Source of the DNA: Acidobacteriales bacterium 59-55 | Lineage (GTDB): Bacteria; Acidobacteriota; Terriglobia; Terriglobales; Acidobacteriaceae | DNA length: 64,000 nucleotides | Assembly: GCA_001897435.1 (NCBI GenBank) | Contig: MKSV01000002.1 | Span: 1 to 64,000, forward strand | Direction of reading: 5' to 3' | Part shown: positions 2,043 through 15,388 of the stretch, one piece after another | Layout: every line of letters starts with the position of its first letter | Numbering within the stretch: position 1 is the stretch's first letter | Position numbers and translations under genes: made by a program | Notes under the pieces: generated by a model | Told to the model about the DNA's origin: nothing | Database searches by the model: none | The model's input: only the letters and a program-made list of their open reading frames with translations

Positions 2043-5000
2043 TTAGAAATAGAACTTACCGCCAAGCTGCATTTGACGAGGATCGCGCGTACTGTTGATT
2101 TGGCCCGCGCTACCCGCGTTGGTTCCCGAGAAGGGCGTGCCTGGCGCCGGTGCTGAGAGAGAGGTGTTAACAGTACCCCATTGCGTGTGATTGAAGATGT
2201 TGTAGAACTCAAACCGCAATTGGAAGCGTACGCTCTCTGTAATGTTCACGTTCTTGTACAGGGACATGTTGTAGTTGTTCACCCCTGGCCCATAGATGGT
2301 ATTGCGATGAAAGTTTCCAAAACTACCGTTAGCCGGCTGCGCGAAGACGCCCGGATTGAACCACATTGGATTTTTTCCAGCCGGCACGTCATGGGTATGG
2401 TTGGCCATAATCTGACCACCGAGGTAGTCCGGGCGAATATGGCCAAAGCCACCATTGCCGAGGTTTCCACTGGACGATAGATCGCAGGAATCGCCGGCGC
2501 CGCCTGCTCCGCTGTTCAAGCAGGGGCTGCCGCTCCAGAACTGGGAGACACCAGATAATTCCCAACCGCCAGCGGTAAGTTGGACCAGTTTATTGGATCC
2601 CCGGAAATCGGGAAAATTATAGACATATTGAATGTTGACGACGTTGCGACGATCAAAGCCCGCAGGCGCGTAGAACTTGTGCAGTTGAGTGTAGTCCGGA
2701 AACGCATTCTGGTTGCTGTCAACGTCGTCCAGATCGACGGCCTTGGAGAACGTGTAGTCCGCATTCAGTGTGAACTTATTGCTGAACCTGCGTTCGAGGT
2801 GGACCTGAAGGCCGTTGTAACTGCTGTTGGCACCAAACACGTTGTACTGAATTGTGTTATAGCCCTTATACGGGAGAATGGCAGCCTGGACATTGTTAAC
2901 CGTAGCCAGGATCGGTGTGCTGGTTGTGTAACCCAGAGGGAGTTGCTCCAACTGCTGGTTATACATCTGGTGCCTGCTGACGTTCCCAATGTATGTGATA
3001 TTCAAACCTAATTTATAGGGTAGTTGCTGCTGGATTCCAATGTTGTAACCATAGGTCGTAGGAATTTGACCCGCACGATCGGACCCCAGGACTCCGCTTG
3101 CAGGAGTCAACGGCGCACCATCGACGAGAGATGGGCTAAGATCTCCAACTTTGCCCCCATAGATTGTGGGCGTATACACCTGAGGAGGATTGCTGATTCC
3201 TCCGAAGTTGAAGACGTTTTGCTGATAGCGTTCGTAGAAGATGCCAAAGCCGCCGCGAAACGCGGTCTTGCCGTCTCCAAAGACATCATAGGCAAAACCA
3301 ACGCGCGGACCGAAGTTATTGTAGCGAGGATTCAGACCACCTTTTGGAAATCCCTTCGTGCCTTCCTGAACCATGCCGTTGTAGGGATTTCCTGAGCCAG
3401 TGATGATGGAACCTTTGGTGGGTGCCTGTCCGGGGATATTGTCAGCGGTGTTAATTTGGACCGCATTCGCGGGGTTGTATGAAGACGGTTCAAAATAATA
3501 CTGATAGAAGGGAGAGGTCGTATAGGTGGGTCCGATGAACTCATAGCGCATGCCGTAATCAAGCGTGAGTCTCGGGGAGATCTTCCAGGTGTCCTGGGCA
3601 TAACCTTCGTACTGGACGAAGTGAAAGTGACCAAAGGCATACTTGTTTGATTGGCTGACTGTGGTGTAATCCCCCAGAATCATGTTCGCGATGCCTGAGT
3701 TGCTGTTATTTGCATTCTGATTGCTGGCGCCGAAGTTAAAGCTAGGGTTCTCCTGCCAACTCCCTTCCTGCCCGTTTTCATTCAAGTCGCCAAAAACTCC
3801 AAACTTAATCACGTGATTTCCAAGGACTTTGGTCACATTGTCCGTGACAACCACCGTGTTCCCCGTGGAGGTCCAACCGGGAGGAAAGGTGCCCGTGTTG
3901 ACATAACCGTCTCCGCTGTTGAGGGCTGGAGCGAGGTTATGAGTATTCGTAGAGGGATAGAGATCGTTGAAGGTATAGCCGATCGTTTGCTTGTCAAATT
4001 TTTCCTTAGGTGTGCCCGGGAGAATGTCGACGACCTGATCCAGGTGCATCCAGCCGACGGTGACTTCATTCGTAAGCGTGGGTGAGATCACGTTCACGAG
4101 GCTCCATGCATAGCTCTTCCCGGGCTTCTTGCGGAATTGTGGATAGACGGGGAAGCTGGGGCCGGAGAAGATGCCGAAGCCCTGGCTCTCCTGCTGCCGG
4201 TCATCCACGTAGCGGAAGAAAGCATTGGCCCTGGGGCCAAAGTTGAAGTCGACACGGGCTACGTACTGATTCTTGCGGAAGGTGTAAGTGTCCTGGAAGG
4301 CAATCTGCTGCATATCGCTGAAGCCATTGTTATAGACCGGGTTATTGAAGCTACCGCGGTATCCCGGCGTAATGTTTTTGATCATGGCCTGATACTGCGT
4401 GCCGAAGTCGCTTTTAGGAATGATGTTGCCTTGATAAACCGTCCCGGTCTGCACCTCCCCGAATTTGTTGTATTGGATCGTTCCGGGAATAAAGACCGAT
4501 CCGTTGCGGACCGGATTCCCGCTAGTGTCGGTGATCGGCGTGCAGGTTGAGGTTCCATTGTTTGCGCACTCGTTCCCTGCACGGTAGAGGGTGGACATGT
4601 CGGCATCGCCAGTCGGAGTACCAATGCCAAGGAGTGCCGGATTCGGCATCGTGTAGAAAGTGCTGCCCGTCGGCTTGCTGGATCGAGTTCCCTCGTAGTT
4701 GAAGAAGAAAAACGCTCTTTTATTGCTTCTCGGTGAGATCTTCGGAATCGGAATGTAACCGCCGATGTTGCCGCCGAACTGATTGAAGTGCAGAATCGAG
4801 CGCGGTTTTCCCTGATGATTGCTGAACCAGTCGTTTGCGTCAAAGGCGGTATTTCGAACGAACTCATAAGCCGTGCCATGGAAGTGGTCGCCGCCCGCCT
4901 TGGTGTTGACCAGAATCATCACGCCGGGGCTACGGCCGTACTCCGCGTTGAAGTTGCCGGTCAGTGTTTTAAATTCGCCTACGGCGTCGATGCTGAGATC

Positions 5001-5825
5001 GGTGTACTGGCCGTCGTTTGCTCCAACGTCAGTATTGATAACACCATCGAGGAAGAAGTTGTTTGCCGTACCGCGCATTCCGTTCACGAAGAAGTCGTTG
5101 GTTTGGTTGAAGACCAGCCGGAATTGAGAGGTATTGTTTGTCACCACCCCGGGCAATGTCGTCATCAGAGATTCAAAGTCGCGTCCGTTCAAAGGCTGTT
5201 CAAGCACTTGCCGGGACGAGATGACAGCCGAGTGGTTCGACGTCTCTGTTTCAATGAGCGGCTCCTCCGAGTTGACGGTAACCGTCTCTGACCGTTCTCC
5301 AATTGACATCTGTAACTGGCCAAGACCAAGATCCTGCTCCTGATCGAGCACGATGCCGCTCCGCTGCAAATTCTTCATACCGGTGGCAGAGATTTTGACA
5401 TCATAGGTGGCAGGCGGCAGGTTCAGCGCCCTGAATGTACCGGTATTTCCAGTCGTTGCTTCTCGGGTGGTATTTCCAGTCGCATGATTGACAACCTGGA
5501 CCGTGGCTCCTGCTATGGACGCGCCACCCGGGTCGACGACGGTCCCTGAGATGGAGCCTGTCTGGGCCTGAAGCTTCGAGCCGGAGAAGAGAATCATAAG
5601 CAGCGCGAGTAAGGACAATCCGATAAGTGAGGACGAATGTCGCCGCTGGCATTCGTCGGTTAAATCGCTCTCCATTTCACTCTTCACGAAACGGTAGCTG
5701 CCTGCATTCTCCTGATCGCAGGCTCCCCCAGTTATTCTGGCGTTTGATCCCGCGGTCTGCGGGTCATTAAAAATGGCGTGGCCGATTCCGCTGATTAGGC
5801 CATAAGTCTTTATGCGTTTTTCCAT
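2043..5825 (-). CDS. Oar-like TonB-dependent receptor with carboxypeptidase-regulatory N-terminal domain
   Basis: The 1260-residue outer-membrane protein has a signal-peptide-like hydrophobic stretch at about residues 67-85, ending L-Q-A-Q. A carboxypeptidase-regulatory-like beta-sandwich follows (G-S-I-S-G-T-V-V-D-P-G-G-A-S-I-A-G-A), then a plug with the P-L-N-G-R-D-F motif and a long beta-barrel ending R-Q-M-Q-L-G-G-K-F-Y-F. This is the Oar-like receptor type expanded in Acidobacteria, thought to import oligosaccharides or other large ligands using TonB energy. The ATG at 5825 has an AGGAAGG site about 10 nt upstream; an ATG at 5675 would place the signal peptide nearer the N-terminus and is an alternative start. 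It is divergent from the exported sugar-acid enzymes and is the likely uptake component of that locus. Confidence 0.9.
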   Translation of the reverse strand: MEKRIKTYGLISGIGHAIFNDPQTAGSNARITGGACDQENAGSYRFVKSEMESDLTDECQRRHSSSLIGLSLLALLMILFSGSKLQAQTGSISGTVVDPGGASIAGATVQVVNHATGNTTREATTGNTGTFRALNLPPATYDVKISATGMKNLQRSGIVLDQEQDLGLGQLQMSIGERSETVTVNSEEPLIETETSNHSAVISSRQVLEQPLNGRDFESLMTTLPGVVTNNTSQFRLVFNQTNDFFVNGMRGTANNFFLDGVINTDVGANDGQYTDLSIDAVGEFKTLTGNFNAEYGRSPGVMILVNTKAGGDHFHGTAYEFVRNTAFDANDWFSNHQGKPRSILHFNQFGGNIGGYIPIPKISPRSNKRAFFFFNYEGTRSSKPTGSTFYTMPNPALLGIGTPTGDADMSTLYRAGNECANNGTSTCTPITDTSGNPVRNGSVFIPGTIQYNKFGEVQTGTVYQGNIIPKSDFGTQYQAMIKNITPGYRGSFNNPVYNNGFSDMQQIAFQDTYTFRKNQYVARVDFNFGPRANAFFRYVDDRQQESQGFGIFSGPSFPVYPQFRKKPGKSYAWSLVNVISPTLTNEVTVGWMHLDQVVDILPGTPKEKFDKQTIGYTFNDLYPSTNTHNLAPALNSGDGYVNTGTFPPGWTSTGNTVVVTDNVTKVLGNHVIKFGVFGDLNENGQEGSWQENPSFNFGASNQNANNSNSGIANMILGDYTTVSQSNKYAFGHFHFVQYEGYAQDTWKISPRLTLDYGMRYEFIGPTYTTSPFYQYYFEPSSYNPANAVQINTADNIPGQAPTKGSIITGSGNPYNGMVQEGTKGFPKGGLNPRYNNFGPRVGFAYDVFGDGKTAFRGGFGIFYERYQQNVFNFGGISNPPQVYTPTIYGGKVGDLSPSLVDGAPLTPASGVLGSDRAGQIPTTYGYNIGIQQQLPYKLGLNITYIGNVSRHQMYNQQLEQLPLGYTTSTPILATVNNVQAAILPYKGYNTIQYNVFGANSSYNGLQVHLERRFSNKFTLNADYTFSKAVDLDDVDSNQNAFPDYTQLHKFYAPAGFDRRNVVNIQYVYNFPDFRGSNKLVQLTAGGWELSGVSQFWSGSPCLNSGAGGAGDSCDLSSSGNLGNGGFGHIRPDYLGGQIMANHTHDVPAGKNPMWFNPGVFAQPANGSFGNFHRNTIYGPGVNNYNMSLYKNVNITESVRFQLRFEFYNIFNHTQWGTVNTSLSAPAPGTPFSGTNAGSAGQINSTRDPRQMQLGGKFYF

Positions 5826-6289
5826 AAAGCGCCTGCCTTCCTGTGGTGAAAAGTGGAGGAACGAGCCCGCCTATTTATACGCTTTAGAAACAGACTTACA
5901 CGTTAAAGCTGATAGTAATATCTGGGGCAATATATATATAGCTTGGACCGGGTGTCAACGACTTAATAGCGCAGTCATGCACTTTTTCGAAGCGATGACA
6001 TTGCAGCGCCCGAAACGGCGATCGCGAGGTCGGATGTGCCGACGCAGGCAGCGGAGGTAACCCACCGGTCGGCGGCCTCGCTTGTCACGATGAGGACATC
6101 ATGGTTACTACGCCTACTCCAATGAGCTAAAGAAAAGATCCTTCATCACTGGCGGGTCAAGAATATTTCCTCAATACTCGCCCGCGTCGTAGTATTGTCG
6201 CGGTTGAGCTTTCACGGCAACCAAGTAGGGATCATCAAGAGAGACCAGCAGCTTCCATCAAGAAGATTTTAGAAAGGGAAAGTCTAACT
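5826..6289. promoter_or_regulatory. Divergent intergenic region between receptor and dehydratase genes
   Basis: This 464-bp gap separates divergently transcribed genes and must carry promoters for both. It is more AT-rich than its neighbours, with an alternating AATATATATATA run near 5928-5939 and an inexact inverted pair around 6160-6180. No regulator gene is adjacent and no operator was recognised with confidence. A weak AAAGGGAA ribosome site precedes the ATG at 6290. Confidence 0.45.
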
Positions 6290-7420
6290 ATGAGTTCTAG
6301 CTTGTCGAGACGAGATCTGGTGACCGGTATGTGTTCGGCGGCGCTTCTGTCTGCTGCTTCACCTGTGCGAGCTAAAGCGTCGACGAAGAGGACGGCCGGA
6401 AGTCTTCCTATAGGGATGCCTCAGGAAGGTCCTGGGACACCTAAGCTCGCTGCTCCTTTGAACGGCAGAAATATTACCGACAAGTCGATGCGGGAGGTAA
6501 AGCAGCTCGGTGTGAACCATGTCCTGATGGGCGGGCCTCCGATGCCATGGACCGAGCCACAGTTGCGCAGCATGGTCGACAAGTGCAAGACCGGCGGATT
6601 GACGATCAGCAACATGATGATTGGCGGATTTCCCAATACGGTTTATGGCCGCCCCGGGCGGGACCACGAGATCGAACTCTTCAAAGACTCTATTCGCGCG
6701 GCAGGCAAAGTCGGAATGCCGACGATTGAGTACAACTTCTATGCCCATCGCGCTATCGAGGGCTACTACGAAGTCGATGGCCGGGGCGGAGCAGGGCTAA
6801 CCGGGTTTGATGTAGATCGAGTGAAGAATCTTCCTCCGCTTCCAGAGGAAGGCGTGCATAGTCTTGAACAGATGTGGAAGAACATCACCTATTTTCTAAA
6901 AGCGGTGATTCCAGTGGCCGATAAGGCAGGCGTTCGCCTTGCGTTGCATCCCAACGATCCACCGATCGCACTTAGCCGCGGATCGGGTCAGATCATGGCG
7001 ACGGTAGACGGATGGAAACATCTGATCAGCATCGTGGACAGTCCCGCCAATGGCATCACCTTCGACTGCGGCGTAACGCGGGAGACGGGGCACGATCCGG
7101 TCGAGGTTTGCCGTTACTTCGGGACGCGGGACCGAATCAACCATGTTCACTATCGCAACCCTACGATTACAGTTCCTAATGACAAATACGTAGAAGGGTT
7201 TATCGACACGGGCGATAACAACATGCTGGCAGTGATGAGGGAGTTAGTTCGAGTCAAGTACAAGCGCCTGATATACCCGGAGCATGAACGGGCACTGGAC
7301 TATGATCGCGCGGTCGGTATCCACAATCAATATCCTGGAGGCGGCGGATACGCCGGGATGGTATTCGACATCGGCTACACGCGAGCTATGCTTCAGGCAT
7401 CCCTTATCCTGGCAAGCTAA
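6290..7420 (+). CDS. Mannonate dehydratase (UxuA family) with a Tat-type leader
   Basis: The 376-residue protein resembles UxuA-type mannonate dehydratase, a TIM-barrel metalloenzyme that converts D-mannonate to 2-keto-3-deoxygluconate. Family features include R-L-A-L-H-P-N-D-P-P, the G-I-T-F-D-C-G-V-T-R-E segment and H-V-H-Y-R-N, which supply metal and substrate ligands. Unlike cytoplasmic UxuA (about 390 residues, no leader) it begins M-S-S-S-L-S-R-R-D-L-V with a hydrophobic stretch ending P-V-R-A, a twin-arginine export leader. Its stop overlaps the next start by one base (TAATG), so it is translationally coupled to the PQQ dehydrogenase. The substrate is inferred from the family; other xylose-isomerase-like TIM barrels are possible but less likely. 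Confidence 0.82.
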   Translation: MSSSLSRRDLVTGMCSAALLSAASPVRAKASTKRTAGSLPIGMPQEGPGTPKLAAPLNGRNITDKSMREVKQLGVNHVLMGGPPMPWTEPQLRSMVDKCKTGGLTISNMMIGGFPNTVYGRPGRDHEIELFKDSIRAAGKVGMPTIEYNFYAHRAIEGYYEVDGRGGAGLTGFDVDRVKNLPPLPEEGVHSLEQMWKNITYFLKAVIPVADKAGVRLALHPNDPPIALSRGSGQIMATVDGWKHLISIVDSPANGITFDCGVTRETGHDPVEVCRYFGTRDRINHVHYRNPTITVPNDKYVEGFIDTGDNNMLAVMRELVRVKYKRLIYPEHERALDYDRAVGIHNQYPGGGGYAGMVFDIGYTRAMLQASLILAS

Positions 7421-9603
7421 TGACAATCGATATGAAGAAGCTACCCGCAATTACCACGTTAATGTTGGGATTGGGAATCTGCATTTCTAATCCGTGGATG
7501 GCCTATGGCGCGAACCCGAAAGCGGCGCGAGGTGAATCCGCCGCGACGGGGTGGCAGGTCTACGGCGGACAGGCAACAGGTGATCACTACTCCTCCCTGA
7601 CGCAGATCAACCGCAAGAATGTAAAGAACCTTGTGGTGGCGTGGAAGTTTGATACCGGAGAGCGGGGTGGCCTCGAAACGAACCCTATTGTCATTGGAGA
7701 TGTTCTGTATACTTGCACGCCCCAGCACAGCGTAATCGCGCTCAATGCTGCAACGGGCAAGCAGCTCTGGATCTTCGATTCCGGACTCGAGGGGATGGCG
7801 CGATCGCGCGGGGTATCCTACTGGACCGATGGTCATGAGAGCCGCATCTTCGCCGGGTTTCAAAATTATCTCTATGCGGTGGATGCAAAGACAGGAAAGG
7901 CAATTTCAAGCTTTGGCGAAGACGGCAGAGTCGATTTACGCAAAGGGCTGCGAGGCGACTATCTCAAGCAGTCGGTAGGAATGACATCGCCCGGGGCAAT
8001 TTACAAAGACCTTATCATCGTCGGCGGCCAAAACCCTGAGACACATCCTTCGCCGCCTGGCGATATACGGGCATACGATGTGCATACCGGCGCGATTCGA
8101 TGGACCTTCCATACGATTCCGCATCCCGGCGAGTTTGGCTACGATACCTGGCCCAAGGACGCCTGGAAGAATGGGGGGGCTGCCAATAACTGGGCCGGCA
8201 TGACGATCGACATGAAACGTGGGATCGTCTATGTGCCAACAGGATCGGCCGTCTTCGACTTCTACGGAGCCGATCGAATCGGCAATGATCTTTTTGCGGA
8301 TACCCTACTGGCTTTGGACGCCGAGACGGGAAAGCGAATATGGCACTTTCAAGGCGTCCATCATGATCTGTGGGATCGCGACTTTCCTACAGCTCCCGCG
8401 CTGGTGACGCTCACTCGTAACGGCAAGCGGATTGACGCTGTGGCGCAGCCTTCAAAATCGGGATACCTTTTCATCCTCGACCGCGTCACCGGCAAATCAC
8501 TCTTCCCCATTGTAGAAACACCCTTTCCGGCGAGCACCGTACCGGACGAGGTAGCCTCTCCAACGCAACCAATTCCAACGCTGCCATTGCCGTTCACGCG
8601 GCAAAACGTCACTGAAGATATGCTGACGACCCGAACGCCGGAGGTACATGCCTGGGCGGTGAAGGAGTTCAAAGCAATGGCCGGCGGTGGTCAGTTCACC
8701 CCTCCCAGCGTAGACAAGCTGACGGTTGATCTGCCGGGCTTCGCGGGAGGAGCCGAGTGGGGCGGCCCTGCTGTCGATCCGACAACAGGAGTGATCTACA
8801 TCAATGAAAATGACACTGCGTGGCTCGTAGGCCTTACCGTGCCGCCACCGCCAGGAAGTCTGGGTGAGAAGATCTACCAGAGCCAATGCAGCGTTTGCCA
8901 CGGCAGCAATCGCGCGGGCTCGCCACCCTCCGTCCCTTCACTGATTGGGATTGAAGGGCTTCTGAGCGACAAGGAGATCGCAGAGACAATCCAGCATGGA
9001 AAAGGCCGTATGCCTGCCTTCAATAACCTGAGCAGTGAAGAGGCTGAGGCTTTAGTGCGCTATATATCGAAGACTCCGCAGCAGCAGAATAAAGCGCGAG
9101 GCAAGGCCGCGACAGCTTCTGCAACGTCCTCCGCCATCGACCAGAAGGCTGTGAGTGCTTCGACGAACGACATGCCATATAACACCATAGGATTTCGCAG
9201 ATTCCTCGACCCGGAAGGTTATCCGGCGATTGTGCCGCCGTGGGGAACCTTGAATGCGATTGACATGAATACAGGTAAATACCTGTGGAGAATTCCGTTC
9301 GGAGAATACCCGGAACTGGCTGCGAAAGGAATGCGCGACACCGGGTCCGATAACTACGGTGGCCCGATTGTCACTGCGGGCGGTTTGCTTTTTATAGGCG
9401 CTACCGTTTTTGACCGGAAGTTTCACGCCTATGACAGCCGTACCGGAAAGCTGCTTTGGGAGACTGAGCTTCCGTTCTCCGGCCTCGCCACACCATCCAC
9501 CTATATGGTGAATGGCAAGCAGTATGTTGTCATCGCCAGTGGCGGAGGCCAAAGCAGCGGCAAGCCGAGTGGGGGAGTGTATGTCGCCTTTGCATTGCCC
9601 TAG
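7420..9603 (+). CDS. PQQ-dependent dehydrogenase with an inserted cytochrome c domain
   Basis: The 727-residue quinoprotein oxidises alcohols or aldoses in the periplasm and passes electrons to the respiratory chain. An N-terminal signal peptide (an in-frame ATG at 7432 gives M-K-K-L-P-A-I) precedes propeller repeats with A-x-D-x-x-T-G-K-x-x-W signatures, for example A-L-N-A-A-T-G-K-Q-L-W. A heme-c motif C-S-V-C-H at residues 490-494 sits in an inserted cytochrome domain of about 80 residues with its M-P-A-F axial segment, after which the propeller resumes (D-M-N-T-G-K-Y-L-W). It resembles the membrane-bound glucose/glycerol dehydrogenase group. Starting on the last base of the dehydratase stop, it probably supplies sugar acid to the neighbouring exported dehydratases. 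Confidence 0.88.
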   Translation: MTIDMKKLPAITTLMLGLGICISNPWMAYGANPKAARGESAATGWQVYGGQATGDHYSSLTQINRKNVKNLVVAWKFDTGERGGLETNPIVIGDVLYTCTPQHSVIALNAATGKQLWIFDSGLEGMARSRGVSYWTDGHESRIFAGFQNYLYAVDAKTGKAISSFGEDGRVDLRKGLRGDYLKQSVGMTSPGAIYKDLIIVGGQNPETHPSPPGDIRAYDVHTGAIRWTFHTIPHPGEFGYDTWPKDAWKNGGAANNWAGMTIDMKRGIVYVPTGSAVFDFYGADRIGNDLFADTLLALDAETGKRIWHFQGVHHDLWDRDFPTAPALVTLTRNGKRIDAVAQPSKSGYLFILDRVTGKSLFPIVETPFPASTVPDEVASPTQPIPTLPLPFTRQNVTEDMLTTRTPEVHAWAVKEFKAMAGGGQFTPPSVDKLTVDLPGFAGGAEWGGPAVDPTTGVIYINENDTAWLVGLTVPPPPGSLGEKIYQSQCSVCHGSNRAGSPPSVPSLIGIEGLLSDKEIAETIQHGKGRMPAFNNLSSEEAEALVRYISKTPQQQNKARGKAATASATSSAIDQKAVSASTNDMPYNTIGFRRFLDPEGYPAIVPPWGTLNAIDMNTGKYLWRIPFGEYPELAAKGMRDTGSDNYGGPIVTAGGLLFIGATVFDRKFHAYDSRTGKLLWETELPFSGLATPSTYMVNGKQYVVIASGGGQSSGKPSGGVYVAFALP

Positions 9604-9727
9604 GAATACATCCGTTCAACTCGGGGAGTCGATCCATCCGTCCCAAAAGTGATCGCGGCAGAAATCGTTTGCGTGCCGGACCATCTATAAATCGAGGGGA
9701 GTTCATCTGTAATGCGAGGAGGCGAGC

Positions 9728-10804
9728 ATGAATCAATCTCGTAGAAGCCGGGTGCAGCCCCTGATCTTGGCTTCTCTCACTTTGGCTATTCTTGTTCAGC
9801 CGGTTCGGGCAGCATGGGCACGCGCGCAGAGTGGTACGGACGGGAAGGGCTGCACTTCGCTCCTGCAGTCCAGCTATCCAAAGACTTCTATCTCAAACGG
9901 GCTCGTAAACGCAGTGGTTTACCTGCCCGATGCGAAGAATGGCTACTATCGTGGCTTGCGCTTTGACTGGTCTGGCGTGGTTGGCTGTTTGGCCTACAAG
10001 GGGCATACCTACTTTGGAGTCTGGTTTCCTCGTTATGACCCCTTGTTGAATGATTCAATTACCGGTCCCGTAGAAGAGTTCCGGTCGAGCGATGGTCTCA
10101 GTTCAGTGAATTATCGCGAAGCAAAGCCCGGAGAGCCATTCTTGAAACCGGGAGTCGGAGTCCTGCGCAAGGTCGATAATTCGCCATACGCTTTCACCGC
10201 AACCTATCCGCTCATTGATGGAGGACGATGGACGGTGCACAGCAGGCGGGACGGCGTCTCCTTCAGACAGGACCTTCGTTCAAAATCGGGCTTCGCGTAT
10301 GTATATAAAAAAACCTTGAGCCTCGCAAAAGACGAGCCTGCTCTCATCCTGGAGCACGAGTTAAAGAATAATGGCACAAAGACGATTGATACACAGGTCT
10401 ATGACCACGACTTCTTTATGCTCGATGGGACCCCTACGGGGCCCGACATGGTCATTAGCTTTCCTTTTGAGCCTAAAGCTGAACAGGCTTTACGGCATGG
10501 TGGAGCAATCGATGGCAGAGATATTGTCTACCGGCAAGAACTCCAGGCTGGACAAAGCGTCACCAGCTATTTGACCGGTTTCTCAAATAGCACCTCCGAC
10601 TATGATCTTAGAGTCGAGAATCGACGTACTCATGTAGGTGTCGAACAGACTGCCGATGTTCCCATGTCGCAGCTGAACTTCTGGTCGATTCGTTCCACCA
10701 TCTGCCCTGAGGCATATATCCACCTAAATATCCCTCCGGGGAAAACTGCGCGCTGGACGATACGCTATCGCTTCTATGTGAAGCAGGATTCAGAAGCACA
10801 TTAG
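9728..10804 (+). CDS. Secreted protein of unknown function (mutarotase-like beta-sandwich suspected)
   Basis: The 358-residue product has a strong ribosome site (GAGGAGGCGAGC before ATG) and a signal peptide ending about P-V-R-A-A-W-A. The mature part is rich in beta-strand-like alternation and aromatic residues (G-Y-Y-R-G-L-R-F-D-W-S-G, H-T-Y-F-G-V-W-F-P-R-Y-D-P), with Y-D-H-D-F-F near residue 230 and a late G-K-T-A-R-W-T-I-R-Y-R-F. This layout recalls the galactose-mutarotase/aldose-1-epimerase superfold, which fits a sugar-oxidation locus, but I do not recognise the family and no catalytic His pair can be assigned. It lies between the PQQ dehydrogenase and the RraA-like gene. Confidence 0.8.
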   Translation: MNQSRRSRVQPLILASLTLAILVQPVRAAWARAQSGTDGKGCTSLLQSSYPKTSISNGLVNAVVYLPDAKNGYYRGLRFDWSGVVGCLAYKGHTYFGVWFPRYDPLLNDSITGPVEEFRSSDGLSSVNYREAKPGEPFLKPGVGVLRKVDNSPYAFTATYPLIDGGRWTVHSRRDGVSFRQDLRSKSGFAYVYKKTLSLAKDEPALILEHELKNNGTKTIDTQVYDHDFFMLDGTPTGPDMVISFPFEPKAEQALRHGGAIDGRDIVYRQELQAGQSVTSYLTGFSNSTSDYDLRVENRRTHVGVEQTADVPMSQLNFWSIRSTICPEAYIHLNIPPGKTARWTIRYRFYVKQDSEAH

Positions 10805-10867
10805 CTTACTCATGACTCAAGGGTCGGCAACAAGTCGGTTCGCAGATAAATAAAGAAGGAGAGTTTC

Positions 10868-11812
10868 ATGAAGAAGATGATCTTGAAAGCGTTGATCGCC
10901 TGCGTTGCGCTGGGAACAATATCAGCCTTTGCGCAAGTGAAAATGACGAAAGAGCAGATGATGTTTTACACGTCTGACTGGAAAGGCGCCCGCTTTCCAG
11001 ATGGGCGTCCGAAGCTGCCAGACGAGCTGATCAAGCGTGCATTGGATGTGTCGATTGAGGATGTATGGGGCTATCTGCGCAGCAAGGGATACAGATGCCA
11101 GTTCGAGGGAGGCTGGCAGGCGCTTCATATCGACAAGCCCTTTGCCGGCCGCGCACTAACGGCACAATATATGCCTTTGCGACCAGACATGGAAAAGGCT
11201 ATTTCCGCTGAGGGAAAAGCAGAAGGTCGAGTAAGCGGAAGTAACAGCTGGCCGATTAATGAGTTACAGATTGGAGATGTTTATGTTGCCGACGGCTATG
11301 GAAAGATTGTCGAAGGTACCCTGATCGGATCGAACCTCGGAAATGGAATCGCTGCGCACACTCACACGGGCTTTATCTTCGATGCTGGGATCAGAGATCA
11401 GGAGGAAAACCGGGAGATACCCAACTTCAACGGGTTTTACAAAGGGTATGATCCTTCTTACTGGGTCGACATGCAGCTCACGGCAATTAATTCTCCAGTG
11501 CGCATAGGGCGAGCGGTAGTACTGCCTGGAGACCTCGTATTGGCTAAGAAAGATGGGGTCATCTTTATTCCTGCAATTCTGGCCGAAGCGGCCATTAGTT
11601 CAGCGGAGTTTACTTCTCTTGAAGATTCCTACAATTTTGAGCTGAATCAAGAGGGAAAGAATGGCGCGGAATTCGAAGGTGGCTGGACTCCACAGAAGTA
11701 CGCTGCTTTCGCAAAGTGGGTTGAAGCCCACCCGGATAAACTGAAGATGCCGCGATCTGAATTCGATGCAATTCTGGCTCAACGGAGCAAGCCCCACCAT
11801 GAAGCGCCCTAG
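10868..11812 (+). CDS. RraA/HMG-aldolase family protein with a signal peptide
   Basis: The 314-residue protein follows an AAGGAGAG ribosome site and starts with a Sec signal peptide (M-K-K-M-I-L-K-A-L-I-A-C to A-F-A). The core matches the RraA-like family: G-D-V-Y-V-A-D-G-Y-G, G-T-L-I-G-S-N-L-G-N-G-I, D-A-G-I-R-D (equivalent to the D-G-x-x-R-D metal/substrate motif of 4-hydroxy-4-methyl-2-oxoglutarate aldolases) and G-D-L-V-L-A-K-K-D-G-V-I-F-I-P. Members cleave 2-keto acids by retro-aldol reaction or bind RNase E; a secreted protein cannot do the latter. It is longer than typical members (160-230 residues) with an extra C-terminal tail. A role cleaving a keto-deoxy sugar acid is inferred from context. 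Confidence 0.8.
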   Translation: MKKMILKALIACVALGTISAFAQVKMTKEQMMFYTSDWKGARFPDGRPKLPDELIKRALDVSIEDVWGYLRSKGYRCQFEGGWQALHIDKPFAGRALTAQYMPLRPDMEKAISAEGKAEGRVSGSNSWPINELQIGDVYVADGYGKIVEGTLIGSNLGNGIAAHTHTGFIFDAGIRDQEENREIPNFNGFYKGYDPSYWVDMQLTAINSPVRIGRAVVLPGDLVLAKKDGVIFIPAILAEAAISSAEFTSLEDSYNFELNQEGKNGAEFEGGWTPQKYAAFAKWVEAHPDKLKMPRSEFDAILAQRSKPHHEAP

Positions 11813-11878
11813 GTGCGTGATTCCTTTTGCTTCTTCCGCATCGGATTGCTTCCATAAGTTAAAAGAGCAACTGTTCAC

Positions 11879-11909
11879 CGGGGATCAGGGCTACGTACTC
11901 TGATCCCCG
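11879..11909. terminator. Hairpin between convergent genes
   Basis: A 10-bp perfect inverted repeat (CGGGGATCAG with its complement) with an 11-nt loop lies between the convergent RraA-like and ManD-like genes. Neither side has a long T-run, so it may be a weak bidirectional terminator or a 3'-end stabilising hairpin. Confidence 0.45.
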
Positions 11910-11917
11910 TCGAGCTT

Positions 11918-13261
11918 CTATTGCTTGATCACGGTTCCGTCCAGCTTGCGAATCACTCCCCATCCCCCATTTAGATTGTTCCGTCCCGGGGTAAATGGAG
12001 ACTTAGCCGCAGCCTTCTCATCGACCTCGATTCCCCAGCCTGGCTTTTCATTGATCCAGACATATCCATCTTTCAACTCCGGGCAGCCGTGAAAGATCTC
12101 GCGCGATCGATCATTGAATGGGGAGTACTCCTGAATCCCGAAGTTTGTGCTAACGATGTCAAGTGTGATCTGTGCCATATGACCGACCGGAGAAACATCG
12201 CCCGGCCCGTGCCATGCTGTCTTGACTCCGAACTGCTCAGCCATAATTGCTATCTTGCGTGCCGGGGTAAAACCGCCAACCTGTGAGAGGTGGCAGCGAA
12301 TATAGTCGATCAGTCGTCCTGCAATCAACGGCTGCCACTCATGTGGGCTGTTGAATAGCTCGCCCATCGCGATAGGAGTCGCGCAATTCTGCCGAATCTG
12401 CTGGAAGTAACCCAGATCTTCAGGAGACAGCGGATCTTCGATAAAGAACATATGAAATTTCTCCGCCTCCTTGCAGAACTGTACCGCTTCATTCGGTGTA
12501 AGCCGTTCATGCACGTCATGCAATAATCCGACTTCTTCACCCAACTCCTGGCGGCATATCTCCAAAAGCTTGAGCTCTCGGCGCATACTGTAGGCCGGCT
12601 CGAAAAAAGGTCCGTCGTGGAGCGGCTTGAACTTGGAGGAAGCAGAATGTGCTGATCCGTAGCCGTCCATTCCAGGAATTCCAATCTGGACGCGCACATT
12701 ATGGAATCCCCGAGCCATATATTGTTTTGCGGATGCGACGACATCGGCGAATTCGGGGCCGCCCGCATGACCATAGACATCGACCGCTTCCCGGCATTTT
12801 CCGCCTGCAAGTTGATATACGGGCATCCCGGCCTGTCGTCCTTTGATATCCCAGAGCGCCTGATCGATTCCACTAATAGCATTGTTCAATACCGGACCGT
12901 TCTTCCAGTAAGAGCTGTCGTAGCAGGATTGCCAGATATCCTCAATTCGGTCGGTTGTTCTATTGAGCAGCAATGGCTTTAAATATCTCTCTACTGCAGG
13001 CTTAACCAAATCGGCTCGTTGTGTAAATGTGGCGCAGCCGTAGCCATAAAGTCCGTCCTGATCGGTCGTGATTTTAACGACGGTGAGGCGCACTCCCGCC
13101 GGTTCGCACTCAATGACACTGATATCCCTGATTCTCGGAGTAGGCATTCCACGTGTTGCGCGGGCAACCTGCTCTTCCGCTCTGACAACAACCGGTGTTA
13201 CCAGGCTGAGGACTCCAGCCCCCGCAATAGACTTCAACATTTGTCGACGGCCGATAGACAT
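11918..13261 (-). CDS. ManD/RspA-type enolase-superfamily dehydratase with a Tat leader
   Basis: The 447-residue protein begins M-S-I-G-R-R-Q-M-L-K-S-I-A-G-A-G, a twin-arginine leader ending V-V-V-R-A. The rest matches the mannonate dehydratase/starvation-sensing RspA branch: an N-terminal capping domain with Y-G-Y-G-C-A-T-F, an A-L-W-D-I-K-G segment, metal-site motifs D-V-H-E-R-L, F-I-E-D-P-L and M-G-E-L-F, and the T-A-W-H-G-P-G-D-V-S-P-V-G-H loop typical of this branch. Such enzymes dehydrate D-mannonate or D-gluconate to 2-keto-3-deoxygluconate, though many members are slow or of unknown substrate. It faces the RraA-like gene and is the second, non-homologous mannonate-dehydratase-type enzyme in 7 kb. 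Confidence 0.85.
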   Translation of the reverse strand: MSIGRRQMLKSIAGAGVLSLVTPVVVRAEEQVARATRGMPTPRIRDISVIECEPAGVRLTVVKITTDQDGLYGYGCATFTQRADLVKPAVERYLKPLLLNRTTDRIEDIWQSCYDSSYWKNGPVLNNAISGIDQALWDIKGRQAGMPVYQLAGGKCREAVDVYGHAGGPEFADVVASAKQYMARGFHNVRVQIGIPGMDGYGSAHSASSKFKPLHDGPFFEPAYSMRRELKLLEICRQELGEEVGLLHDVHERLTPNEAVQFCKEAEKFHMFFIEDPLSPEDLGYFQQIRQNCATPIAMGELFNSPHEWQPLIAGRLIDYIRCHLSQVGGFTPARKIAIMAEQFGVKTAWHGPGDVSPVGHMAQITLDIVSTNFGIQEYSPFNDRSREIFHGCPELKDGYVWINEKPGWGIEVDEKAAAKSPFTPGRNNLNGGWGVIRKLDGTVIKQ

Positions 13262-14020
13262 CTCGTCTCCTTTTCATTTCCCGTACCACTCTAACTGATC
13301 AATAGACCTGCATATACCCAGTTACATTTGGATAACTCGCGCTTTACGGCCTGTTATTAATCGACTCTACGAATAGAGTTCGCTCAAGCCTCATGCATGT
13401 AGCGAGACGCTGCGCAGAAGCATAGACATAAGAGATCGCCAGAGGGGCTATCACTCCTGCATCGGCAGCCTACACGCTGAAACTCGTGCGCAATGCTCCT
13501 GTCAGGTCGATTGCGATCCAGCGAGATGGCACTCGTTGACAAAAGTGCGCCAAGGCGTCTATAAGGTGTGCGTAAATCGTTTCAGTAGAATCGTTCGTCC
13601 AACTAAGTTGTCATCGTAGAGCAGCTTTGTGGCACGTACAGAGAGACCAGTCCTATCTTTTGAGAGGTAAGCAATCCAGTGCGGGAATGCGCAAGCAGCA
13701 ACTCTTTTATCTGTACTCGTGTCGCATTTCGTCATCTGTGTTGCAGCCATCGCATAAGTAAATGTCTGTGGGTACCATCTGCAGCAGGATGGACACAGGA
13801 TTTGCCGGCGCAAAAGTGCTATGAGTGATAGCGCCTGCGGGGGTGGCGTCGGCAAAGCTACGGATTGAATGATCGCTATACGATCCAAGGCAAGCCCGGC
13901 CTGCAGATTGATTAACTTTGATGTGGCGAAAGACGTGCGGTTCCAGAAGTTGAATTGGTATATGAAGATGCATCAAGCAAGACGAAACAACTGATGGCCA
14001 ATTCTCATGGGAGAGCAACA
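13262..14020. other. Intergenic region without a recognised gene
   Basis: This 759-bp gap lies between divergent enolase-superfamily genes. Open frames at 13559-13888 and 13707-14021 on the minus strand have no family resemblance, no ribosome site and atypical composition, so I do not call them. The stretch must contain promoters for both flanking genes and may hold decayed coding DNA. A GGGAGAG ribosome site just before 14021 fixes the start of the following gene. Confidence 0.5.
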
Positions 14021-15388
14021 ATGTCCGATTACAACAGTTTAAGGTTCAATCGCCGCGGTATCCTGAAGTCCTTCGGGGCCGTGCTCGCTGGCAGCCTTCT
14101 CGATCGTACTGCGCCTGCAGAGCCTGCGGTCAAGAATGTCAATCTCCATTCCAGCCCGTCAACCCTGAAGATCACCGATTTGCGCTATGCCGTGATTGTC
14201 AAGCCTGGTCCGAGCCCGTGCGTCCTGATTCGCATTGATACCAATCAGGGTGTCTATGGTCTGGGGGAAGTACGCGATATTGCAGGTCCGAACTATGCCA
14301 TGGTGCTGAAAAACCGCATCCTCGGTGAGAACCCGCTCAATATCGACTTTCTCTTTGAGAAAATTGCACAGTTTGGAGGTGGCGCCCGCCAGGCGGGCGG
14401 TGTCTGCGCTATCGAGATGGCGCTTTGGGATATTGCAGGCAAGGTTTACAACTGCCCGGTATACCAGATGCTTGGCGGAAAATGGCGCGATACGATCCGC
14501 ATCTACGCAGACACGACCGAGTCCATGGACCCGAAAGAATACGGACAGCGGGCCAAAGAGCGGAAGGAGATGGGCCTTACCTGGATCAAGATGGATCTCG
14601 GGATCGACACACTCAAGAATATTCCGAACACGGTGATGCAACCCGCAGGCCTGAGCAATTGGGAGCTGCGCAATCAGCCTCATCCTTTTATCGCTACCGA
14701 GGTTACCGACAAAGGAATCGACCGTCTTTGCGAATATGTCGCCGCGGTTCGCGATGCAATTGGCTATGACATGCCCCTGTCGATGGATCACCTTGGACAT
14801 ATCGGCGTGAACTCTGCCATTCGCCTCGGCAAAGCCTACGAGAAATTCAACCTGGAGTGGATGGAAGACGTGATCCCCTGGTATTACACCGACCTCTGGA
14901 AGCAGATCACGGATGCCAGCCCAACGCCCACGATCACCGGCGAGGACATCTACCAATTCACTGATTTCGAGACGCTATGCAAGAACCATGCCGTGGACAA
15001 GATCCATCCCGATCTTGCCACCTCGGGCGGTATTCTGCAGACGCACAAGATCGGCAACATGGCATTCCGCTATGGTGTTCCCATGGCGATGCACTTTGCG
15101 GGTACCCCGGTCTGTTGCATGGCGAACGTTCATTGCGCGGCAGCGACGCGTAACTTCCTCGCGCTCGAGAATCACTCGCTCGACGTGCCTTTCTGGCAGG
15201 ATCTGGTCACTGGAATTGAAAAGCCCATCATCAACCGCGGCTTCATCAAGGTTCCCGATACTCCGGGGCTGGGCATTACGCTGAACGACGATGAGTTGAA
15301 GCGACACCTGAAGCCCGGCACAGGGTACTTTGAACCGACTCCCATGTGGAATGAGAAACAATCCTGGGATGACGCTCTCTTCAGCTAA
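14021..15388 (+). CDS. Enolase-superfamily (mandelate racemase/muconate lactonizing type) enzyme with a Tat leader
   Basis: The 455-residue product starts at an ATG preceded by GGGAGAG; the earlier in-frame ATG at 13955 lacks a site and would bury the leader. The leader carries N-R-R-G-I-L-K-S-F-G, a twin-arginine signal. Family features are G-L-G-E-V-R-D, I-E-M-A-L-W-D-I-A-G-K, a W-I-K-M-D-L-G lysine strand, and likely metal ligands in S-M-D-H-L-G-H, W-M-E-D-V-I and I-T-G-E-D-I. The superfamily abstracts a proton alpha to a carboxylate; in sugar-acid members this gives dehydration to a 2-keto-3-deoxy acid. The substrate cannot be read from the sequence. It differs clearly from the ManD-like gene at 11918, so the locus has two distinct enolase-superfamily members. 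Confidence 0.85.
   Translation: MSDYNSLRFNRRGILKSFGAVLAGSLLDRTAPAEPAVKNVNLHSSPSTLKITDLRYAVIVKPGPSPCVLIRIDTNQGVYGLGEVRDIAGPNYAMVLKNRILGENPLNIDFLFEKIAQFGGGARQAGGVCAIEMALWDIAGKVYNCPVYQMLGGKWRDTIRIYADTTESMDPKEYGQRAKERKEMGLTWIKMDLGIDTLKNIPNTVMQPAGLSNWELRNQPHPFIATEVTDKGIDRLCEYVAAVRDAIGYDMPLSMDHLGHIGVNSAIRLGKAYEKFNLEWMEDVIPWYYTDLWKQITDASPTPTITGEDIYQFTDFETLCKNHAVDKIHPDLATSGGILQTHKIGNMAFRYGVPMAMHFAGTPVCCMANVHCAAATRNFLALENHSLDVPFWQDLVTGIEKPIINRGFIKVPDTPGLGITLNDDELKRHLKPGTGYFEPTPMWNEKQSWDDALFS

Follow-up and report, generated by a model that had tools for sequence, protein, structure and literature searches.

A candidate extracytoplasmic sugar-acid breakdown module in Acidobacteriales bacterium 59-55 built around EnoB and an RraA-like protein

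The use of sugar acids by enolase-superfamily paralogues has been described for SAR202 bacteria, and the non-phosphorylative pathways proposed for them lead from a dehydratase of this superfamily to a pyruvate-type aldolase (PMC10444878, searched passages). In a periplasmic route of Caulobacter and Bacteroidota, LacABC and DUF1080 proteins oxidize glycosides at position 3, for example to 3-keto-lactose, and then hydrolyze them, so that oxidation and cleavage take place outside the cytoplasm (PMC9007349, searched passages). The 64,000-nucleotide stretch analyzed here (the window) is the start of contig MKSV01000002.1 (C2) in the 4.9-Mb genome of Acidobacteriales bacterium 59-55 (GCA_001897435.1, the host genome). 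It carries genes for EnoB, an enolase-superfamily protein resembling acid-sugar dehydratases with a twin-arginine translocation (Tat) type leader, and for an RraA-like protein with a Sec leader, together with a UxuA-like, a ManD-like, a pyrroloquinoline quinone (PQQ) dehydrogenase-like and a mutarotase-like protein. A preliminary description of the window had proposed that oxidation, dehydration and aldol cleavage of sugar acids all occur outside the cytoplasm. As judged from sequence, the chief new result is that export-tagged EnoB and a predicted secreted RraA-like protein are a conserved pair in several phyla.

The locus resembles the SAR202 pathways in joining an enolase-superfamily dehydratase-like protein to a predicted pyruvate-type aldolase. 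It differs from them in that both enzymes are export-tagged and in its aldolase, which is RraA-like and belongs to none of the families given for SAR202; no mention of the periplasm occurs in the searched passages of PMC10444878. The LacABC and DUF1080 enzymes are unrelated, and that route, as far as the searched passages of PMC9007349 describe it, includes neither acid dehydration nor aldol cleavage. Polysaccharide-utilization-type loci of Bacteroidota offer a third comparison, as SusC/SusD genes likewise adjoin the RraA-EnoB genes in 14 of 80 loci, but there dehydratase-like and aldolase-like proteins are found downstream instead of glycoside hydrolases. Among the papers listed by a search of the open-access literature, none dealt with an export-tagged pair of EnoB and RraA.

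A gene pair for EnoB and an RraA-like protein

Two samples were used. For the first, which comprised 151 class genomes, the E-value limits were 1e-80 for EnoB and 1e-20 for RraA, and proximity was taken from coordinates. A scan of named genomes returned at least 553 EnoB relatives, of which the best 80 loci underlie all counts out of 80 (Acidobacteriota 31, Bacteroidota 37, Poribacteria seven, Armatimonadota two, and Verrucomicrobiota, Planctomycetota and other one each). The closest named relatives of EnoB are from Acidobacteriota, and the top ones among the matches listed are 84-85% identical over the best segment. EnoB occurs in 31 of the 151 class genomes, and 18 of these, the host genome among them, have an RraA gene no more than 3 kb from it. 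RraA is also its commonest partner in the named loci: 53 of 80 have it within the same distance, as do 47 of the 63 that extend at least 1.5 kb on both flanks. By phylum the pairing was found in 15 of 31 Acidobacteriota, 31 of 37 Bacteroidota and 3 of 7 Poribacteria loci, and in single loci elsewhere. The preliminary description had proposed to look for co-occurrence in Terriglobia; for the export-tagged dehydratase-like protein and its export-tagged RraA-like partner, co-occurrence extends over several phyla.

Leaders were called with a simple home-made rule (twin-arginine or RR type, or Sec type, at any start). Among the control open reading frames (ORFs) of at least 250 amino acids at 15.8-64 kb, the rule scored 5 of 28 as RR, 7 as Sec and 16 as without leader; it is therefore liberal, and the evidential weight rests on the conservation of leaders. 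For the counts in orthologues the window protein was excluded, and only orthologues with loci returned by the searches were included, best first. An RR-type leader is present in 20 of 23 orthologues of the UxuA-like clade, in 18 of 19 of the ManD-like protein (the remaining one scored Sec and apparently has a short start) and in all 19 of EnoB. A leader of either type was found in 29 of 29 orthologues of the RraA-like protein, 19 of 19 of the PQQ protein and 27 of 29 of the mutarotase-like protein. Conserved leaders were an outcome that the preliminary description had named as support. The host genome contains a TatC gene, and a twin-arginine motif before a hydrophobic stretch, together with Tat genes in the genome, agrees with the sequence criteria for predicted Tat substrates.

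EnoB carries an RR leader in 70 of the 80 named loci. The preliminary description had regarded homologues without leaders as evidence against export; such homologues exist, but among the 80 they comprise only the seven Poribacteria, both Armatimonadota and locus L206, and in the first two groups every readable adjoining RraA gene is leaderless too (4/4). Of 51 pairs of EnoB with a strong RraA match, 43 have a leader on both genes, four on neither (L212, L240, L242 and L254, from Poribacteria and Armatimonadota) and four are discordant by rule. On reading, all four discordant pairs showed a leader-like stretch, in frame in L193 and L217, from a later start in L203 and in another frame in L206; L193, L203 and L217 look like misses of the rule and L206 looks like a frameshift. 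On a quick EnoB tree with one row omitted, leader state takes three changes, one of which is L206. In the Verrucomicrobiota locus L241, the frame of the RraA gene (3578-4435) runs on without a break from a repeat-like stretch upstream (VGDVDKDGLPDLVVG), perhaps as a fusion to a secreted repeat protein.

A habit of the lineage could also produce such leaders, if Acidobacteriota and Bacteroidota equip many TIM-barrel and Gfo/Idh-type proteins with Tat leaders and the cluster is a loose acquired assortment. This would agree with the RR scores of the control ORFs and with further RR-leader TIM-barrel genes nearby in relatives (an AP_endonuc_2 gene at 12641-13642 of L188, and L285). However, EnoB and RraA are a conserved pair in several phyla and, where leaders are missing, both genes are without one; style alone is insufficient to explain this, and we consider this account improbable. 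At 14457-16777 of L285, a locus from a class genome, an RR-leader lyase of the dihydrodipicolinate synthase (DHDPS) family and an RR-leader DgaE-like pyridoxal phosphate (PLP) enzyme stand beside EnoB and a UxuA-like gene. This locus supplies a non-homologous export-tagged lyase alongside EnoB; export of PLP enzymes would be unusual.

Residues D256, H257, E282, E308, D331, H358 and E383 of EnoB are invariant in 99 of 99 sequences. Aligned to 2qq6 and 2ox4, the protein keeps the three acidic metal ligands and the His-Asp dyad and thus fits an acid-sugar dehydratase of the MR/MLE group; we take D256, E282 and E308 to be the ligands and D331 and H358 the dyad. EnoB has the motif D-H-x-G where 2qq6 has D-x-H-G, and its acid catalyst may therefore differ. 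Its score against the galactonate dehydratase (DgoD) model NF010624 (188.5 bits) is under the equivalog cut-off of 311. Two variant arrangements were observed. Adhaeribacter aquaticus has six tandem EnoB-like genes followed by three RraA-like genes (L248, 8362-21391), and six Poribacteria loci (L240, L242, L244, L254, L255 and L262) contain a leaderless EnoB that adjoins, in place of SusC/SusD and BASS genes, an AstE/M14-like gene, one member of which was tested against Pfam.

The RraA-like protein contains domain PF03737 above cut-off, and its Arg-Asp pair (R176, D177) is present in 96 of 96 sequences. Positions 155 and 180 hold Asp and Gly in 71 of these, Asp and Arg in one, and Ser, Ala or Gly with Glu in 24. 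The letters of the two RraA metal motifs are presumably D-X20-R-D and G-X20-R-D-X2-E/D; the window protein has S155 and E180, so that Ser takes the position of Gly in the second motif. At exact spacing, 92 of 96 sequences match D-x20-RD or (G/S/A)-x20-RD-x2-(E/D), and a strict Gly occurs in only three. The exchange of the acidic residue between positions 155 and 180 fits two alternative metal-binding motifs. One of two such motifs is present in most RraA homologues, which are likely class II pyruvate aldolases, enzymes that also decarboxylate oxaloacetate (PMC5065237), and the window protein is predicted to be such an aldolase. With the HMG/CHA (4-hydroxy-4-methyl-2-oxoglutarate/4-carboxy-4-hydroxy-2-oxoadipate) aldolase 3noj it shares the domain, the invariant Arg-Asp pair and the two-motif metal site. 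It differs in its Sec leader, its weak sequence similarity (E 1.5e-7) and its partner, a sugar-acid-dehydratase-like protein in place of aromatic ring-cleavage genes.

The locus in the host genome

All ORFs that the preliminary description placed at 2043-15388 are present, and genes and leaders lie where it put them apart from one start: EnoB more likely begins at ATG 14021, the first codon of its twin-arginine leader, than at TTG 13955. The features are as follows.

2043-5825, minus strand: TonB-dependent Oar-like outer-membrane receptor with carboxypeptidase-regulatory domain (PF25183 566 bits, PF13620, PF07715)
6290-7420, plus strand: UxuA-related TIM-barrel enzyme with Tat-type leader (SRRDL; PF03786 134.6 bits; predicted metal site H220/D259/H287/E331)
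7420-9603, plus strand: secreted PQQ-type dehydrogenase propeller with cytochrome c domain (PF01011 636 bits; PF13442 at residues 482-549)
9728-10804, plus strand: secreted protein with predicted galactose-mutarotase (aldose 1-epimerase)-like fold (pLDDT 85.5; Foldseek E 6.3e-11, TMq 0.54)
10868-11812, plus strand: RraA-like protein with Sec leader, predicted class II pyruvate aldolase (PF03737 55 bits; R176-D177 invariant; S155/E180 metal-site variant)
11918-13261, minus strand: ManD-like enolase-superfamily enzyme (mannonate/gluconate dehydratase subgroup) with Tat-type leader (GRRQMLK)
14021-15388, plus strand: EnoB, MR/MLE enolase-superfamily acid-sugar-dehydratase-like protein with Tat-type leader (NRRGILK), conserved partner of RraA
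15753-15829, minus strand: tRNA-Val (gac) at the GC step, context outside the pathway

The receptor ORF is taken from its first ATG, and the real start is probably internal. The UxuA-like, PQQ, mutarotase-like and RraA-like genes all read in one direction; base 7420 belongs to both of the first two, and gaps of 124 and 63 bases by coordinates follow, which makes an operon plausible. The ManD-like gene is on the opposite strand, and EnoB diverges from it about 760 bases further on. A promoter and terminator scan of the locus gave sites no more numerous than in shuffled sequence. GC content is 0.531 over 1-15.5 kb and 0.614 beyond, and third-position GC is 0.55-0.68 in the low-GC stretch and 0.75-0.83 in the next three genes. 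The low GC and the adjoining tRNA-Val suggest acquisition, and the locus is probably a genomic island with the tRNA gene as its edge, which also agrees with a loose acquired assortment. No exact repeat of at least 12 bases of the tRNA was found elsewhere in the window; the left end of the island lies beyond the contig start.

The predicted model of the UxuA-like enzyme has its top Foldseek matches, and hence its closest fold, in the UxuA structures 3ban, 1tz9 and 4eac (E 2.6e-24, TM 0.75-0.80). Its H220, D259, H287 and E331 align with the His, Cys, His and Asp of these structures, which we take to be the metal ligands, and are identical in 21 of 21 clade members; an invariant Cys260 stands beside D259. 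The window enzyme adds a Tat leader to the UxuA fold and has Asp and Glu for Cys and Asp. A UxuA identity was rejected on the changed metal site and on scores below both NCBIfam mannonate-dehydratase cut-offs, and the UxuA-type chemistry of the preliminary description is not supported. The clade (above 50% identity) was detected in 24 of 151 class genomes, and within this sample the host genome is its only carrier in the family, although the named family relatives L187, L188 and L190 also carry it. Its neighborhoods are mostly without other window genes. A second UxuA-like gene of the host genome, on contig C7 (L038, 8711-9811), starts MNRREFISSSGVAAVALG and has an RR-type leader.

The ManD-like protein matches the ManD subgroup (3t6c, 3tw9 and 4ihc) over 401 residues with E 4e-130, but differs by its Tat leader and by a score of 389.4 bits, under the NCBIfam equivalog cut-off of 550 for the D-mannonate dehydratase ManD. 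A leaderless paralogue in the host genome reaches 698.5 bits, above this cut-off. The locus of this paralogue (G000:C7:1470248-1471462; L286, 8240-9445) adjoins a KduD-like short-chain dehydrogenase/reductase (SDR) and an 852-amino-acid gene without NCBIfam match, and is the ordinary cytoplasmic counterpart in the host genome.

The PQQ protein has the string CSVCH at residue 490, inside its cytochrome c domain, and its propeller is best matched in NCBIfam by the glucose/quinate/shikimate family. Against the membrane-bound PQQ glucose dehydrogenase family, its match to TIGR03074 (480.8 bits) is under the cut-off of 832.65 and begins at model position 146, with the N-terminal part unmatched. The host genome contains six PQQ-dehydrogenase-like genes (E up to 1e-100). 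In Acidobacteriaceae KBS 89 (L190, 1710-3201), a PQQ gene in pieces stands beside a UxuA-like gene and runs into a ManD remnant. The product of 9728-10804, which the preliminary description had listed as a secreted protein of no known kind, remains of the secreted type. It has no match in Pfam or NCBIfam and is now predicted from its structural model to have a galactose-mutarotase-like fold (top Foldseek matches 3nre, 3k25 and 4bze; probability 1.00, TMq about 0.54, rmsd 6.5). In its orthologues H93 and H210 are invariant and E117, E297 and E328 nearly so, residues of the kinds (His and Glu) that are catalytic in mutarotases.

The substrate might be other than a sugar, namely plant- or aromatic-derived hydroxy acids treated by a periplasmic analogue of the quinate oxidation and dehydration of acetic acid bacteria; in Gluconobacter the conversion of quinate is sited in the periplasm. 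There, quinate is turned into 3-dehydroshikimate with 3-dehydroquinate dehydratase (PMC8102297, passages seen), a precedent to which can be added the score of the PQQ protein against TIGR03074 and the aromatic-pathway HMG/CHA aldolase among the RraA kin, although RraA reaches just 50 bits with ligK_PcmE, far under its cut-off. Because the nearest matches of EnoB and the ManD-like protein are acid-sugar dehydratases, and the product of 9728-10804 resembles a sugar mutarotase, we assign such a substrate little probability.

Beyond the pair, the gene content of the window is rarely repeated. Of the 80 named loci, 6 have a UxuA-like gene no more than 10 kb from EnoB, 9 a ManD-like gene and 2 a PQQ gene. 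On these counts the window gene set was rejected as a general conserved operon; they are also in line with the loose assortment considered above. UxuA-like, ManD-like, EnoB and RraA genes are all together in L188 and three of these in L187. In L199, UxuA, EnoB and RraA genes follow in line on one strand, and L190 contains UxuA, pieces of the PQQ gene, a ManD piece, EnoB and RraA. RraA adjoins a PQQ gene in two congeners, G026 and G111. Oxidation by the PQQ enzyme as a fixed step, part of the preliminary description, therefore finds little support; of its all-external route, the dehydration and cleavage part keeps the support of the conserved leaders and the EnoB-RraA pair.

A proposed extracytoplasmic route

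From the gene content, the conserved and concordant leaders, the EnoB-RraA neighborhood, the invariant residues and the Bacteroidota arrays that are observed, we infer export, reactions, substrate, order of steps and transported products. The cluster would be an extracytoplasmic, non-phosphorylative module of sugar-acid breakdown with EnoB and RraA as its core. Substrates would cross the outer membrane via the TonB receptor here and via SusC/SusD in Bacteroidota. EnoB, exported by Tat, would dehydrate a sugar acid to a 2-keto-3-deoxy acid, which secreted RraA would cut to pyruvate or a related keto acid and an aldehyde. In the host genome the exported ManD-like and UxuA-like enzymes may serve other epimers or branches, and the mutarotase-like protein and the PQQ/cytochrome c dehydrogenase could turn aldoses into aldonates. 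The small products would cross the inner membrane, in many Bacteroidota by a symporter of the BASS (bile acid:sodium symporter) family resembling PanS. Periplasmic dehydration by EnoB and aldol cleavage by RraA is the explanation that we favor, with somewhat better than even confidence.

Of the 37 Bacteroidota loci, 15 have a SusC gene within 7 kb of EnoB, 16 a SusD gene and 14 the two together (one homologue of each was tested against Pfam), and 20 have a BASS-family gene at that range. The full array of SusC, SusD, RraA, EnoB and BASS genes is present in 9 of 37, and in 15 of all 80 loci EnoB is followed at less than 700 bp by a BASS gene that reads in its direction. Two BASS proteins that were tested scored 135 and 141 bits with PF01758; their best NCBIfam model was PanS (244 and 246 bits), with the cut-off of 400 unmet. 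The position of SusC/SusD and BASS beside the exported pair fits dehydration and cleavage before uptake, and the array order suggests a sequence of import, dehydration, cleavage and import. Plant members of the BASS family transport pyruvate, glycolate and 2-keto acids (PMC10645422, passages seen). A full route in Bacteroidota, Acidobacteriota and some others, in which TonB or SusC/SusD, a Tat-exported dehydratase and a Sec-exported RraA aldolase are followed by sodium-coupled BASS uptake of a pyruvate-like keto acid, and neither kinase nor sugar transporter is needed, is put forward tentatively, at somewhat less than even confidence.

The compartments could instead be mixed. Exported enzymes would then make 2-keto-3-deoxy acids or epimers from sugar acids or oligosaccharide ends, the six-carbon product would be imported and finished by a cytoplasmic kinase and 2-keto-3-deoxy-6-phosphogluconate (KDPG) aldolase, and RraA would act elsewhere or as a decarboxylase, for which the oxaloacetate activity of class II pyruvate aldolases gives a precedent. 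As the preliminary description had stated, no kinase, 2-keto-3-deoxygluconate (KDG) dehydrogenase or inner-membrane transporter was detected by ORFs and Pfam among the genes of 1-15.4 kb. It took this absence to fit external processing, but elsewhere the host genome has cytoplasmic capacity, with three PF01081 aldolase-family genes above cut-off besides the KduD-like SDR that adjoins the leaderless ManD. Mixed compartments are at odds with the rank of RraA as the top partner of EnoB and with its matching leader state. In Bacteroidota, moreover, the common inner-membrane neighbor is a BASS symporter, from a family that includes carriers of pyruvate and keto acids, rather than a sugar-acid transporter of the major facilitator superfamily (MFS). 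We judge this alternative unlikely.

Several observations weigh against a periplasmic EnoB-RraA module as the explanation. The full gene set of the window recurs solely in near relatives; an RraA gene near EnoB is missing from 27 of the 80 named loci and from 13 of the 31 EnoB-bearing class genomes, although some contigs are short, and the PQQ gene is a rare neighbor. The leader rule also scores 12 of 28 control ORFs, and in one of the 43 concordant pairs, L241, the RraA leader is doubtful: one calling gave none and another Sec, and the protein has no clear leader of its own. Most locus enzymes, the UxuA-like one included, score under NCBIfam equivalog cut-offs. PQQ made by the host is unsupported: no PqqC match was found in its genome, whereas the PqqC cut-off is passed in 16 of 60 genomes of the family, and the best PqqE-like score is 98.8 bits against a cut-off of 381 in a search without positive control, so PQQ would need an external source. 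With regard to transport, the substrates of BASS proteins vary, and the bacterial member ASBT-NM bound pantoate and not ketopantoate (PMC10645422, passages seen). The three SBF-family genes of the host genome are all ACR3 arsenite carriers, and a PanS-like importer in this genome is therefore rejected. In L188 a galactonate-transporter-like (DgoT-like) MFS gene lies about 1.3 kb from ManD (TIGR00893 227 bits, cut-off 395 unmet) and would permit import of intact sugar acids, as mixed compartments require. The claim of the preliminary description that only small products are imported is not upheld by these transporter genes.

Central-type cleavage of sugar acids is taught as cytoplasmic. If periplasmic dehydration and cleavage by EnoB and RraA is true, the cutting of aldonates to pyruvate would take place outside the inner membrane in many bacteria of soil and water, and models of the uptake, cross-feeding and carbon flux of oxidized sugars would change. 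The widely annotated and mostly unassigned RraA-like proteins would then gain a role at the substrate level, and the Tat system would gain one in the export of enzymes of primary metabolism.

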